64,000 nt of DNA from NCBI GenBank assembly GCA_024636155.1, contig JAGXHM010000038.1:1-64000 (forward strand). The letters run 5' to 3'. Every line of letters begins with the position of its first letter. Within the stretch, counting starts at the first letter, position 1. Both the position numbers and the translations under genes were made by a program. The DNA comes from Deltaproteobacteria bacterium (GTDB lineage Bacteria; Desulfobacterota; Desulfuromonadia; Desulfuromonadales; BM103). Positions 9,360 to 44,266 of the stretch are shown here, one piece after another. The notes under the pieces were generated by a model that saw only the letters and a program-made list of their open reading frames with translations, did not search any database and was not told the DNA's origin.

Positions 9360-11795
9360 ATGCCGAAGCAGACAGACAAACAAACAAAATCGTTCCTCGC
9401 CATCCTGATCCGCTCCTTTTTTGGTCTGGGTCTACTTGGTTTGTCGCTGGCCGTCATCGTGCCGATCGGCGCCTATCTTTACATGTCCAAGTCACTGCCT
9501 CGCGTCGACACGCTTTCAGATTATCGGCCGCCGATCGTCACCAGGATACTTAGTAATGACGGGGCAATTATAGCTGAGTTTTTTGAAGAACGACGCATTA
9601 TCGTTCCTGTCTCACGCATGCCTAAGCAGTTGATTCAGGCGTTTGTCGCTGCCGAAGATTCAAATTTTTTCAAGCACCAGGGCGTCGACCTCGTCTCGAT
9701 CCTGAGGGCGGCTATAAAAAACATTGAAGCAGGCGGCATTGTCCAGGGCGGCAGCACAATCACCCAACAGGTTGCCAAGAGTCTGCTTTTGACTCCGGAG
9801 CGCAAGTTTAAACGTAAGTTCAAAGAGGCAATTCTCGCCTACCGTATGGAGAAGCGCCTGTCCAAGGAAGAGATCCTCTATCTTTACCTCAACCAGATTT
9901 TTCTCGGCCATGGCGCCTATGGCGTACAGGCCGCCGCCGAGAACTACTTCGACAAGGATGTCGAGAACCTGACCCTCGCCGAATGCAGCATACTCGCCGG
10001 TCTACCGAAAGCCCCCAGCCGCTACTCTCCCTACAGTCACTATGAACGCGCCAAAGATCGACAGGTCTACGTTCTCGGCCGCATGGTCAACGAAGGCTTC
10101 ATCAGTCAGGCAGAAGCCGATCAAGCTAAAACGGAAGAGTTGGAAATTCGACCACGCATCAATCAACACATTGCTGACGCAGCTTATTTCACCGAACAGG
10201 TCCGTCGCTACCTGGAAGACACCTACGGCGAAGAACTGCTTTACCGCGGCGGCCTCGAAGTCCATACCAGCATGAACCTGCAAATGCAGCTGGCTGGCCA
10301 GGCAGCGGTCCAGGCTAATCTGCGTGACCATGACAAGCGCCAGGGCTACCGCTGCCCCCTTACGGTTCTGAGCGTTGACGAAGAGACTGAGTTCCTCAGC
10401 CAACAGGCCAAAGATTTTGCCGAGCAACAACCACAACTTGATGACGTTATCGAAGCCGTAATCAGCGGCGCCGACAAAGAGAATCTTCATCTGCGCATTT
10501 CTGAACAGGAAGGCCGCATCGCGCTGAAAAGTGCCCAGTGGGCCGGCCCCCCACTCCTGGTTAAACGTTCTATCGAAGCGACCGGTAACGCCACCGAAAA
10601 GACCACCCGCCTGCCCCTTGGAGCCAAAGTACAGGCTCGGATTGTTGACATACCCAAAGAGGGGCCGTGGCAGCTGTCCCTTGAGCAAACGCCACAAGCC
10701 CAGGGGGCGTTGCTGGCGATGGATCCGCATAATGGTCAGATCAAGGTGATGGTGGGCGGCTATGATTTCCGCACCAGTCAGTTCAACCGTGTCCTCCAGG
10801 CTCACCGCCTGCCCGGTTCGGCAATGAAGCCACTTATCTACGCTGCCGCCCTCGATAAAGGCTACACCCCGGCCACCATAATTCTCGACACCCCCCTGAT
10901 TTACAAAGAGCGCCTTGAGAGTGGTGAAATAAAAGAGTGGAAACCGAAAAACTACTCCAAGCGCTTCTACGGGCCGGTGCCGTTACGCACCGCGCTAGCT
11001 AAATCGTACAATGTCATTACGATCAAAATTCTCGAAGACATCGGCGTGCGCTATGCCGCCAACTACGCCCACAAACTCGGCATTGAATCGCATCTCGACG
11101 AGGACCTGACGCTCGGCCTCGGCTCGTCCGCGTTAACGCCGATGGAGCTGGCACGCAGCTATTCGGTTCTGGCAAACGGTGGCGTCAAGGTTATGCCGAC
11201 CTATATCAACAGGGTTCTGGATCGTGACGGCAAGATCATCGAGTCGAATGATCCGGCGGATTTCCCCGCAGGACCACAGGCGGGACAGAAGTTGATCGGC
11301 CAATCACGCAGTCGGGTCATCAGTGCAGAGACCGCTTACCTGACTACCAATATCCTGGAAAGCGTGGTCCAAAATGGCACAGGCTGGCGCGCCAGAGCCT
11401 TAAATCGTCCAACTGCGGGCAAGACTGGCACCACCAACGAGCTGAAGGACGCCTGGTTCATCGGCTATGTCCAGCAACTCCTGGCGGTCACCTGGGTCGG
11501 CTATGATCTCGAACGCCCGCTGGGCAGAACGGAAACCGGCTCCCAGGCTGCCGCACCAGCCTGGGTCGCTTTCATGTCGGAGGCTACCAAGGATATGCCG
11601 GTCGAGCACTTTCCGGTGCCTGACAGCATCGAGTTCCGGCCGATCGATCCTCTTACCGGTTTGTTGGCACCCGAGGATAGTCCTGAAATTGTTATCGAGG
11701 CTTTTGCACCCAACACAGCGCCGGTGCGTTATGCGATTGAGGAGAAGACTCCTCAGGCTAGGGATTTTTTCCGGTTGGATATGGATGAACTCTGA
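9360..11795 (+). CDS. mrcA: Penicillin-binding protein 1A (bifunctional class A PBP)
   Basis: 811 aa, builds and cross-links peptidoglycan. There is one N-terminal transmembrane helix (about 13-42). The GT51 glycosyltransferase domain shows AAEDSNFFKHQGVD, GGSTITQQVAKSLLL, KRKFKEAI and LNQIFLGHGAYGVQAAAENYF. An intervening OB-like region precedes the transpeptidase. The transpeptidase motifs are SAMK (Ser487), SYN and KTGTTNE (about 688-694). It is monocistronic, with a clear terminator downstream. The glycosyltransferase-first order and length fit PBP1A. Confidence 0.96.
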   Translation: MPKQTDKQTKSFLAILIRSFFGLGLLGLSLAVIVPIGAYLYMSKSLPRVDTLSDYRPPIVTRILSNDGAIIAEFFEERRIIVPVSRMPKQLIQAFVAAEDSNFFKHQGVDLVSILRAAIKNIEAGGIVQGGSTITQQVAKSLLLTPERKFKRKFKEAILAYRMEKRLSKEEILYLYLNQIFLGHGAYGVQAAAENYFDKDVENLTLAECSILAGLPKAPSRYSPYSHYERAKDRQVYVLGRMVNEGFISQAEADQAKTEELEIRPRINQHIADAAYFTEQVRRYLEDTYGEELLYRGGLEVHTSMNLQMQLAGQAAVQANLRDHDKRQGYRCPLTVLSVDEETEFLSQQAKDFAEQQPQLDDVIEAVISGADKENLHLRISEQEGRIALKSAQWAGPPLLVKRSIEATGNATEKTTRLPLGAKVQARIVDIPKEGPWQLSLEQTPQAQGALLAMDPHNGQIKVMVGGYDFRTSQFNRVLQAHRLPGSAMKPLIYAAALDKGYTPATIILDTPLIYKERLESGEIKEWKPKNYSKRFYGPVPLRTALAKSYNVITIKILEDIGVRYAANYAHKLGIESHLDEDLTLGLGSSALTPMELARSYSVLANGGVKVMPTYINRVLDRDGKIIESNDPADFPAGPQAGQKLIGQSRSRVISAETAYLTTNILESVVQNGTGWRARALNRPTAGKTGTTNELKDAWFIGYVQQLLAVTWVGYDLERPLGRTETGSQAAAPAWVAFMSEATKDMPVEHFPVPDSIEFRPIDPLTGLLAPEDSPEIVIEAFAPNTAPVRYAIEEKTPQARDFFRLDMDEL

Positions 11796-11818: not shown

Positions 11819-11854
11819 TAAAAAGGGTCCGGCGAAAGCCGGATCCTCTTTTTT
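11819..11854 (+). terminator. Intrinsic terminator of the PBP1A gene
   Basis: GGGTCCGGC-GAAA-GCCGGATCC forms a GC-rich stem with a GAAA tetraloop, followed by TCTTTTTT. It lies 24 bp after the stop codon. Confidence 0.9.
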
Positions 11855-11892
11855 GTTACCCTTTTTGCTTTTGACTTTCCCTATGAACTGCA

Positions 11893-11967
11893 AAACCAGA
11901 ACCGCGGGTCGCGTCCCGCAGACGCCATACTCTTTTGATGGCCCAAAAGAGTATGCAGAAAAGGGCC
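11893..11967 (+). repeat. Hairpin repeat, left copy
   Basis: The segment AACCGCGGGTCGCGTCCCGC...AGACGCCATAC followed by the 12-bp hairpin CATACTCTTTTG / CAAAAGAGTATG recurs in inverted orientation at 12346-12421. In the second copy the hairpin is preserved with different bases. The left copy is followed by GC-rich sequence that may belong to the same element. Confidence 0.7.
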
Positions 11968-12345
11968 TTGCGCTGCGCTAGGCATTTCTTGCGCCGCGGG
12001 TCGGTGCGTTGAACACTTTTGTGCTATGGGATCGGGGGTGCGTCGTTGTTTGCTTCGACTTACTTGCAGTCGTAGTTGGCGTTGCTCTCTGCTGATTTAG
12101 CGTAGTTTACATTTCAGGAGGCCTGAGAACCTAAGCGAGAAACCTGCACATTAATTCAGGAGTTATTGCTTTGTGGTTCAATGACACTTAATGGCAGAAC
12201 TATTAAAGATTAGAACAGTGCTTGTTAGTAACAAGAATGGGTCCTCAAGGGCCCGTTCTCGTAATGGCTCCGAGACTATTATGTCTGTGCGCACATTGTT
12301 AATGACACCGTTTGCACCGCACATGGAGGTGCCCACCGCAAGGTG
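11968..12345. other. Gene-free interior between the hairpin repeats
   Basis: No ORF with a convincing start or family was found. Short hairpins occur: CTTGTT-AGT-AACAAG (12221-12235), then an 11-bp stem AGAATGGGTCC-TCAA-GGGCCCGTTCT (12234-12259). It could be decayed mobile DNA or encode a structured RNA. Function is unknown. Confidence 0.4.
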
Positions 12346-12421
12346 AAGGCATTTTTGCTTACTTTTGTTGCCGGACAAAAGTATGGCGTCTGGCGGGACG
12401 AGCCCCGCCGGTCTTGTTTCT
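12346..12421 (-). repeat. Hairpin repeat, right (inverted) copy
   Basis: Inverted counterpart of 11893-11967. It shares CAGACGCCATAC and the GC-rich block, and has its own stem TACTTTTGT / ACAAAAGTA. Together the two copies bracket about 380 bp without genes. Confidence 0.7.
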
Positions 12422-12478
12422 GATGTTGGTTTGGTTAACAGCCACAGAATACCCCCTCTTTAACAACGGGGACAGTTC

Positions 12479-13132
12479 CTACTTCTGACGCCCAACCCCA
12501 ACCTGTGGACAACGATCAACCACCGGACAAGCCGAACACCAGGCAGTCTGAGCCCGGCAGCATTGCCGACCATGAAAAATAAGAACGTGCGCAGCCTGCG
12601 TCCAACGCTCGGCAGGCAATAACTTACAGAGCTGCTTTTCCACTCCTTCTGCTGTGGATGCTGTCGTCCAACCGAGCCGCCCGGCAATCCGACCAACGTG
12701 GGTATCCACAACCATTCCTGGAACATCAAAAGCATTTCCCAAAACCACATTCGCAGTTTTACGACCAACTCCAGGTAAGGCGACCAGAGATGACATCTGT
12801 CGAGGAACTTCACCACTGTGCAAGGTTACCAGTGCTGTCGCACAGCCGATCAGGTTTTTTGCTTTATTCCGGAAAAATCCTGTTGAACGGATCAGATTTT
12901 CAACTTCTGCCACTTCTGCATTCGACATACTTACAGGATCGGGAAAGCGATTAAAAAGCTCTGCCGTCACCATGTTTACTCGAACATCTGTACATTGTGC
13001 AGAGAGAATTGTTGCAGCCAGAAGCTGCCAAGGGTTCTGATGGGTGAGGGCGCAATGAGCATCCTGATAGGTCGCTTCCAGACAATCGAGTGTCGCGAGT
13101 GCGTGGAGAGGTGTAATTCGGAGCGTTTTCAT
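12479..13132 (-). CDS. nth: Endonuclease III
   Basis: 217 aa bifunctional DNA glycosylase/AP lyase for oxidised pyrimidines. The helix-hairpin-helix LPGVGRKTANVVLGN carries the catalytic Lys, and VVDTHVGRIAGRLGW carries the catalytic Asp. The C-terminal 4Fe-4S site is complete (C-x6-C-x2-C-x5-C in CRAQTAWCSACPVVDRC). The stop codon sits inside AAGTAGGAACTGTCCCC, a short motif I associate with REP-type repeats. It is convergent with the PBP1A gene across the 11.8-12.5 kb repeat block. Confidence 0.95.
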   Translation of the reverse strand: MKTLRITPLHALATLDCLEATYQDAHCALTHQNPWQLLAATILSAQCTDVRVNMVTAELFNRFPDPVSMSNAEVAEVENLIRSTGFFRNKAKNLIGCATALVTLHSGEVPRQMSSLVALPGVGRKTANVVLGNAFDVPGMVVDTHVGRIAGRLGWTTASTAEGVEKQLCKLLPAERWTQAAHVLIFHGRQCCRAQTAWCSACPVVDRCPQVGVGRQK

Positions 13133-42620: not shown

Positions 42621-43322
42621 GTGCGCAGAAAACAAATAGAAAGACACCAAACGTTACGCGAAAAAATCCTGGAAACAATTCGGGATGCTATCCTGAAAGG
42701 AACCATGAAGCCAGGCGAGCGTGTTTCCGAGCCGGATTTGGCAGAACGTTTTGGCATCAGTCGAACACCAATCCGGGAGGCCTTCCGCCAGCTGGAATCG
42801 GAAGGTTATCTGGAAGTAGTGCCACGCAAGGGAGCTGTGGTTGCGTCTCTCTCTGAGCGGGATATTGAAGAGTTTTATGCGATCAAGATAATTCTTGAAG
42901 GTTTTGCCGCCAGGATGGCCGCGGAAAAATTAACCGGGAAAGAGATTGAACGTCTTGAATCGATCAATGAGCGCCTGCACAAAATTGCCAAAGAAGGTGA
43001 TGTGAAGACCTTCTTCCGCGTTCACAATGAGTTCCATGAGGTTTTTATCAAGGCTGCCGGCAACGATAAGCTTTCGGAAATGATCAATCAGTTGGTCATG
43101 AAGTTCAAACGTCTGCGCCTGGCCTCTTTGTCACAGCCGGGTCGCATGGAAGTTTCCATAGAAGATCATAGCGACATGATTCAGGCCTTTAAGGATCATG
43201 ACGGCAATCGTGCCGACAGTCTGATACGCCACGCAGCAACGATTGGAGCCGAGGTGTTGATTCAAAGCATGCCCCAGGCAGAAACGGAAAAAGCAAAGCT
43301 TCTTCCGCGAACTAGTCTTTAG
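42621..43322 (+). CDS. GntR family regulator, FadR/FCD subfamily
   Basis: 233 aa. The N-terminal winged helix is LREKILETIRDAILKGTMKPGERVSEPDLAERFGISRTPIREAFRQLESEGYL. The C-terminal helical FCD domain has the likely metal/effector residues HNEFHEVF and DHSDMIQAFKDHD. FCD regulators usually sense carboxylates or sugar acids. GTG start with GGAG 7 nt upstream. A matching palindrome sits in its own promoter and upstream of the atp operon. Confidence 0.92.
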   Translation: MRRKQIERHQTLREKILETIRDAILKGTMKPGERVSEPDLAERFGISRTPIREAFRQLESEGYLEVVPRKGAVVASLSERDIEEFYAIKIILEGFAARMAAEKLTGKEIERLESINERLHKIAKEGDVKTFFRVHNEFHEVFIKAAGNDKLSEMINQLVMKFKRLRLASLSQPGRMEVSIEDHSDMIQAFKDHDGNRADSLIRHAATIGAEVLIQSMPQAETEKAKLLPRTSL

Positions 43323-43356
43323 CAAATAGCAGGCAATTGATATTTTACATGCAGAA

Positions 43357-43392
43357 GAAGAGCGGCCCGTCCATCAGGACGGGCCGCTCTTC
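43357..43392. terminator. Bidirectional terminator-like hairpin
   Basis: A perfect 16-bp stem GAAGAGCGGCCCGTCC / GGACGGGCCGCTCTTC with loop ATCA lies between the convergent GntR and ABC permease genes. T-richness is modest on both sides (TTCTTC on minus, CTATTG on plus). Confidence 0.75.
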
Positions 43393-43477
43393 CTATTGAT
43401 AAGGAAGTATGAGCGTAGAGAGTGAGAAGTCTTCGAGTCTGGAAGCGAAAGGGTCAAGCCGTTGGGAAGAAGCTGGC

Positions 43478-44266
43478 TTAGTTCCGGAGTCGATGACTAC
43501 GGGAAATAAGGCTGGCGGCCCAAAGGAAAAGGATCACAGCCATGACCGTAACAACGCTAAAGGAGACGGTGAAAGGGAGATCGCCAACCCCGAGTAGAGC
43601 ATAACGGAAGCCATCGATCAGATAGAAGAGAGGGTTGAGGTGCGAAAGCTTGGCCCAGAGCGGCGGCAAGATGGAGATCGGGTAAAAGACGCCACCAAGA
43701 TAAATCAACGGTAAGATGACAAAGTTGGTGTACATTGACAGGGAGTCAAAATTTTCGGCGTAAATAGCGGCAATGATGCCGAACTGGGCGAAGAGAAAGC
43801 TGGCCAGGCAGGCCATAACGAGGGCGGCAAAAGGGTGCGCCCAGGGTAACGAGGCAAACAGGCAGGAGATCAGCCAGACGACAAAACCGACAGCCAGACC
43901 CCGCAACATAGCGGCTAAAGTATAGGCCATGATGAACTGGGTCGGAGTGACCGGTGTGACCAATAGATCGACAATGCTGCCAAGATAGCGTGACATGAAA
44001 AGCGAGGAGGCCACGTTGGCGAAGGAATTATTAATGACCCCCATCAGGATCAGCCCCGGAATAACAAACTGAGCATAGCTGAAGCCGTCAAGCACGCTGA
44101 TCCGTTCGCCGAGGGTGGCTCCAAAAATAAAGAGATAAAGTGACGCAGTAATGACCGGGGTCACCAAGGTCTGTGATGCAACCCGTAAAAAACGACGTAT
44201 TTCCTTCTGCAGAAGAGTGTAGAAGGGCAACCAGGCTATGAAAGGTTGGTCTTGGCGAGGCGTCAT
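43478..44266 (-). CDS. ABC-2 type transporter permease
   Basis: 262 aa with six predicted membrane helices. The ABC-2 pattern is visible: FVIPGLILMGVINNSFANVASSLFMSRYLGSIVDLLVTPVT, then PLIYLGGVFYPISILPPLWAKLSHLNPLFYLIDGFRYALLG. It resembles YadH-like exporters of unknown substrate. The gene starts 3 bp after its ATPase partner. Confidence 0.9.
   Translation of the reverse strand: MTPRQDQPFIAWLPFYTLLQKEIRRFLRVASQTLVTPVITASLYLFIFGATLGERISVLDGFSYAQFVIPGLILMGVINNSFANVASSLFMSRYLGSIVDLLVTPVTPTQFIMAYTLAAMLRGLAVGFVVWLISCLFASLPWAHPFAALVMACLASFLFAQFGIIAAIYAENFDSLSMYTNFVILPLIYLGGVFYPISILPPLWAKLSHLNPLFYLIDGFRYALLGVGDLPFTVSFSVVTVMAVILFLWAASLISRSHRLRN

Follow-up and report, generated by a model that had tools for sequence, protein, structure and literature searches.

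What keeps two facing, hairpin-bearing segments in place between two convergent genes in a block that appears to encode nothing? We addressed this question for a locus in the window, by which we mean the whole 64,000-nucleotide stretch of DNA analysed here, taken from a contig of a 2.9-Mb MAG (the source MAG, G000) of the Desulfuromonadales, an order of iron- and sulfur-reducing bacteria.

Two unlike multi-hairpin units face outward from a gene-free block

A sequence-only reading of the window had described two inverted copies of a segment of about 75 bases facing each other across this block. Both copies are real, with an inverted match between the arms of 44.6 bits (76% over 70 bases) against a best of 25.6 bits among the 195 other 900-base stretches of the window, but the repeated unit is about 95 bases long. 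The one hairpin reported per copy is also present, T/A-rich and at the same position in both but built from different bases (ATACTCTTTTG..CAAAAGAGTAT versus ACTTTTGT..ACAAAAGT), whereas a GC-rich second hairpin, a small third hairpin and two hairpins in the middle of the block had been overlooked. The block is gene-free as described, with no ORF of at least 80 aa lying wholly between the ORFs of the mrcA end and nth. The locus is composed of the following features:

9360..11795, plus strand: mrcA (penicillin-binding protein 1A), upstream convergent neighbour, named from the annotation of relatives
11824..11857, plus strand: mrcA terminator, an intrinsic-terminator-like hairpin that reads into the element
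11893..12421, no strand: whole element copy, non-coding, outermost hairpin to outermost hairpin, about 530 bases between convergent mrcA and nth
11893..11987, minus strand: type I end unit with hairpins C, B and A in outward order (covariance model R1, 99.4 bits)
11902..11921, minus strand: type I hairpin A, GC-rich and outermost, followed outward by TTCTGGTTTT
11927..11954, minus strand: type I hairpin B, T/A-rich, ATACTCTTTTG..CAAAAGAGTAT
about 11965..11983, minus strand: type I hairpin C, small and less certain, GCGCTGCGC, placed partly by sequence inspection
12113..12129, no strand: core hairpin M1, TTCAGGAGGCCTGAGAA, from sequence, with a conserved counterpart in other genomes
12235..12260, no strand: core hairpin M2, GAATGGGTCCTCAAGGGCCCGTTCTC, from sequence, with a conserved counterpart in other genomes
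12326..12421, plus strand: type II end unit with hairpins C, B and A in outward order (covariance model R1, 89.8 bits)
about 12331..12350, plus strand: type II hairpin C, small, GCCCACC-GCAA-GGTGAAGGC
12358..12385, plus strand: type II hairpin B, T/A-rich, CTTACTTTTGTTGCCGGACAAAAGTATG, with arms ACTTTTGT..ACAAAAGT at 12361-12382
12390..12411, plus strand: type II hairpin A, GC-rich, CTGGCGGGACGAGCCCCGCCGG, followed outward by TCTTGTTTCT
12479..13132, minus strand: nth (endonuclease III, function assigned from sequence), downstream convergent neighbour

Read outward, each unit runs from hairpin C through a first linker (TTTTTGC or TTTTCTGC), hairpin B and a second linker (GGCGTC) to hairpin A, beyond which stands CGGTTTTG or a similar sequence. 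Hairpin C reads GCGCAGCGC in the type I unit and CACC-GCAA-GGTG in its type II counterpart. Between the two window ends the linkers are mutually complementary, so that a single strand can also fold into one long structure, and the predicted DNA fold of the element has an energy of -100 kcal/mol compared with -76 for shuffles (z -5.4).

Base pairing is conserved in the units

The sequence-only reading had argued from the differing bases of the two hairpins that selection acts on base pairing, and strong covariation across the family bears this out. In an alignment of 26 units (A1), 95.5% of cells are standard pairs and double changes occur in 12 of 17 pairs, and in an alignment of 145 distinct units (A2) the corresponding values are 97.1% and 15 of 17. 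Controls on A2 in which partners were slid pair in 48-63% of cells, and the covariation score observed exceeds that of every shuffle. Alignment to the model biases A2 toward the structure, but A1, for which sequence alone was used, gives the same result. Structure, not sequence, is conserved in the units.

Such conservation could mean that the hairpins act in transcripts, as a structured non-coding RNA or as paired RNA ends with a 3'-end, stability or regulatory role to which copy number is secondary. Pairing is conserved across the order, the core hairpins are kept, and hairpin A, whose outer side is T-rich, resembles a terminator when either end is read outward. Furthermore, when units are read outward, G-U cells outnumber A-C cells by 84 to 5 over all pairs, a bias common to both unit types, as would be expected if the outward strand were single-stranded. 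Inside stems G-U accounts for only 1.1%, yet is still commoner there than A-C (20 versus 3). As most G-U cells lie at helix ends and are common by descent, the bias is only suggestive, pointing to use of the outward-reading strand in single-stranded form at both ends. Because the strands favoured at the two ends are opposite, a single transcript through the element does not fit, and neither a match above the gathering score in Rfam 15 nor a common neighbouring gene beside the elements was seen. Together with a copy number that ranges from 0 to 54 among relatives, these observations lead us to regard a primary function in RNA as unlikely.

The element belongs to a family dispersed through the Desulfuromonadales

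A BLAST search of the block against its own genome returned 40 matches, and the window element shares 83% identity over 523 bases with a copy on contig C102. Covariance model R1, built from 26 units, finds 28 units in the source MAG, so that many further copies exist and covary, as expected of the REP/BIME-like dispersed family that had been proposed from the window. Units are present in 36 of 40 sampled genomes of the Desulfuromonadales (the source MAG counted), with up to 54 in a genome (55 at a looser cut-off). Across 297 genomes of the phylum, in a less sensitive search that scored few candidates per genome, four of the five order members match, and two of the 292 others have one weak match each. 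Among genomes from other loci, six of seven that are Desulfuromonadales-like match, versus none of 12 from other phyla. The carriers include Geothermobacter hydrogeniphilus, Desulfuromusa kysingii, Pelovirga terrestris and Malonomonas rubra. An origin from plasmids or phages was considered and rejected, with no match in either reaching threshold.

The family is dispersed, structured and lineage-amplified, with a fixed geometry and tandem arrays. In most complete elements a type I unit is paired with a type II unit, and element length across the order is roughly 400-700 bases. In six genomes, counting units at most 1.5 kb apart, we identified 57 outward-facing pairs with gaps of 126-495 bases that are near-constant within a genome: 225-227 in G001, 285-303 for nearly all pairs in G016, 339-356 in the source MAG, 350-364 in G033 and 396-495 in G012. 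The 29 inward-facing junctions in the six genomes, most of them 32-37 bases long, are parts of tandem arrays; several genomes have head-to-tail arrays, with periods of about 505 (G016), about 617 (G033) and 308 (G015) bases. Protein coding was rejected, as there is no conserved ORF and the ORFs within arrays are spurious read-through.

An additional palindrome, CAACAGAT-N-ATCTGTTG, borders the units in the window's genus and in a sister genus; it stands immediately beyond them on either side, with its loops inverted. In the source MAG each of the five exact matches adjoins a unit, so that this palindrome is the element's outermost component in these lineages; the window copy is without it. In G012 (L169-L173), degenerate word repeats (CGCGTGGCGGGT / ACCCGCCACGCG) occur immediately outside the element, on both sides and inverted. 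The core hairpins of the window copy look inverted relative to the ends when compared with copies in G001 (L176), and this apparent inversion seems to be what recombination between inverted ends would produce.

Copies occupy unrelated sites, mostly 3' of genes

Copies within one genome are up to 97% identical, while their flanks are unrelated beyond at most about 70 bases. From copy number and flanks we infer that the element moves. The mrcA-nth gap is without an element in six related MAGs (L009-L012, L015 and L016), and in a further locus (L014) the gap holds an element in the opposite orientation to the window copy, which is consistent with an independent insertion. The element-free orthologous gaps are between-species and too diverged to align, and did not yield a base-exact empty site.

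Elements mostly lie 3' of genes, beside terminators. The strand of flanking genes was called by a codon-usage score, a simple longest-ORF test having been uninformative. By best-scoring coding strand, 13 loci are convergent, 8 unidirectional and 1, a weak call, divergent; only 8 loci pass a strict strand call on both sides, with none divergent. Of 84 flanks, 43 have a terminator-like hairpin directed toward the element no more than 130 bases away, versus 12 of 78 in the control zone.

The inverted ends, the lack of an ORF, the length of 400-700 bases and the dispersal would also suit a classical MITE of a DDE transposon with terminal inverted repeats, and a different MITE, Chunjie, is described from Geobacter uraniireducens in PMC10969869. 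Against this reading, the ends conserve structure over sequence, and no target-site duplication was seen at four clean single copies in G033, a small sample of old copies. Nor is any of the 57 outward pairs wide enough to hold a transposase gene, and no longer, autonomous version of the element was found among them. We therefore consider a classical MITE improbable.

Candidate mobilisers

The sequence-only reading had pointed to a RAYT or IS200-like transposase, and the block could accordingly be a REPIN mobilised by the RAYT/Y1 transposases of the source genome. Y1 transposases are found in 16 of 21 relatives, and REPINs are likewise inverted palindrome pairs that form tandem arrays (PMC3116915). 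We found no support for this link. A unit lies near only one of 20 Y1 loci, at a distance of 1.9 kb, which is about the chance expectation, and the two Y1 genes checked in the source MAG (L116 and L118, on contigs C115 and C40) are flanked not by units but by a different palindrome, GGGGACAC..GTGTCCCC. G010, which is 82% complete, has 16 units and no Y1 match. Finally, no GTAG tag, as found on REPs with a RAYT, is conserved beside hairpin A or B in A1. The element has neither of the two features that define RAYT-linked REPs, a RAYT alongside and a GTAG tag, and mobilisation by these transposases is highly improbable. The GGGGACAC..GTGTCCCC palindromes fit the TIRYT motif GGGGWSAS described in PMC3733652 and form a separate TIR-type repeat family; similar palindromes are found beside some elements (L168, L171).

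Structure-conserved palindromes in tandem arrays also recall integrons, in which case the copies would be cassettes and the unit junctions attC-type folded recombination sites. A near-complete integron integrase (TIGR02249, 482 bits) is encoded on contig C102 of the source MAG (43263-44201; L089/L202), where its 3' end faces a tandem two-element array. However, an integrase above the family cut-off is absent from the unit-rich genomes G016, G012, G001, G002 and G025, which contradicts this reading, and the integrases of G015 and G033 lie far from arrays. The would-be cassettes are without ORFs, and no attC core sites were evident by eye. We give the integron reading next to no chance. No mobiliser was found among the Y1 transposase and integron integrase candidates examined.

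Relation to known palindromic repeats

The REPINs, or REP doublets, of Pseudomonas fluorescens share with the element an inverted palindrome pair around a spacer, an extragenic position, many copies, tandem arrays in some genomes and the ability to fold into one long hairpin (PMC3116915). However, the REPIN unit is one hairpin of about 20-40 bases and its gap about 71-110 bases, compared with a gap of 225-495 and a unit of about 95 bases comprising two or three hairpins in the element, which further differs in its structured core, its two unlike end types and the lack of a RAYT alongside. BIMEs, like the element, combine two unlike palindromic units, set in opposite orientations, and lie downstream of genes. 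The element differs from the BIMEs of enterobacteria in sequence, in size and in having no linked transposase.

Heterodimers are described for GTAG-3 REPs in PMC3733652, and are common among the CGTC-tagged REPs, which, like the element, have no dedicated transposase. The latter have a stem of 8-9 bp starting with A-T pairs, a loop of 4-5 and a CCA tail (PMC3733652). GGCGTC directly precedes hairpin A in most units, but the stem and tail are unlike those of a CGTC-tagged REP: the GC-rich stem of the element is longer, lacks the A-T start and is accompanied by hairpins B and C. Clusters, rare for CGTC-tagged REPs, are common for the element. No Geobacter or Desulfo- species is named in PMC3733652.

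Chunjie resembles the element in being non-coding and dispersed, in having inverted ends and in coming from the same broad group of bacteria. As described in PMC10969869, the description on which this distinction rests, it is 178-235 bp long with direct repeats, whereas the element is 400-700 bases long and direct repeats were not found in it. Palindromic intergenic 'multicopy nucleotide sequences', some of which occur as opposite-strand pairs at variable distances, have been listed in G. metallireducens, G. bemidjiensis and P. carbinolicus (PMC2700814, PMC2996986, PMC3543383), and a resemblance to multicopy sequences of many genomes is reported for class 4 of PMC2700814. The main texts of these three papers give no structural family, covariation or mechanism. 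Likened by those main-text descriptions, the 'multicopy nucleotide sequences' of Geobacter and Pelobacter possibly include the element family, unnamed.

A probable non-autonomous repeated element

We think it likely that the block represents a single copy of a repeated, non-coding and non-autonomous element of REPIN/BIME/MITE type. It is REPIN/BIME-like in appearance and probably also in behaviour. Each copy presents unlike multi-hairpin ends, type I and type II, outward from a conserved core with further hairpins, to which some lineages add an outermost palindrome. Spread would depend on a trans-acting enzyme that recognises hairpins, plausibly a single-strand or HUH-like one given that no target duplication was seen, and arrays may grow through recombination between neighbouring copies. 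Copies would persist where they are harmless, 3' of genes, where their hairpin ends could act as transcript ends.

The conserved core exceeds the needs of a minimal REPIN, and counts against this explanation. The element departs from known small mobile palindromic elements in its larger and mismatched multi-hairpin ends and in the absence of a known transposase. It is conceivable, though doubtful, that it stands apart from REPINs and MITEs as a separate class of mobile or structured element, namely a single-stranded structure of about 0.5 kb whose two multi-hairpin ends must differ and whose folded core is conserved, with an enzyme family new to such elements driving its spread and with a role in shaping gene 3' ends across the order.

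If the repeated-element reading is correct, a structured repeat without a known mobiliser is present in most Desulfuromonadales genomes, those of cultured electron- and sulfur-reducers among them, and REPIN-like elements can be far larger than recognised, with unlike ends and a conserved core, and can spread without an adjacent RAYT. The element would then be a candidate source of variation in 3' ends and terminators, a named copy of which is open to testing in cultured species, and a covariance model is available for its annotation.

Two smaller observations concern location. Short palindromic motifs of the GGGGACAGT(C/T)CC type occur at 12464-12478 of the window and at other loci (L093, L103, L009); they recur in element-bearing 3' intergenic regions, and several repeat families thus appear to share insertion zones. 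Arrays cluster in a few chromosomal zones (347-402 kb of contig C1 in G015; 135-138 and 189-195 kb of contig C7 in G016), which suggests that these zones are hot spots.
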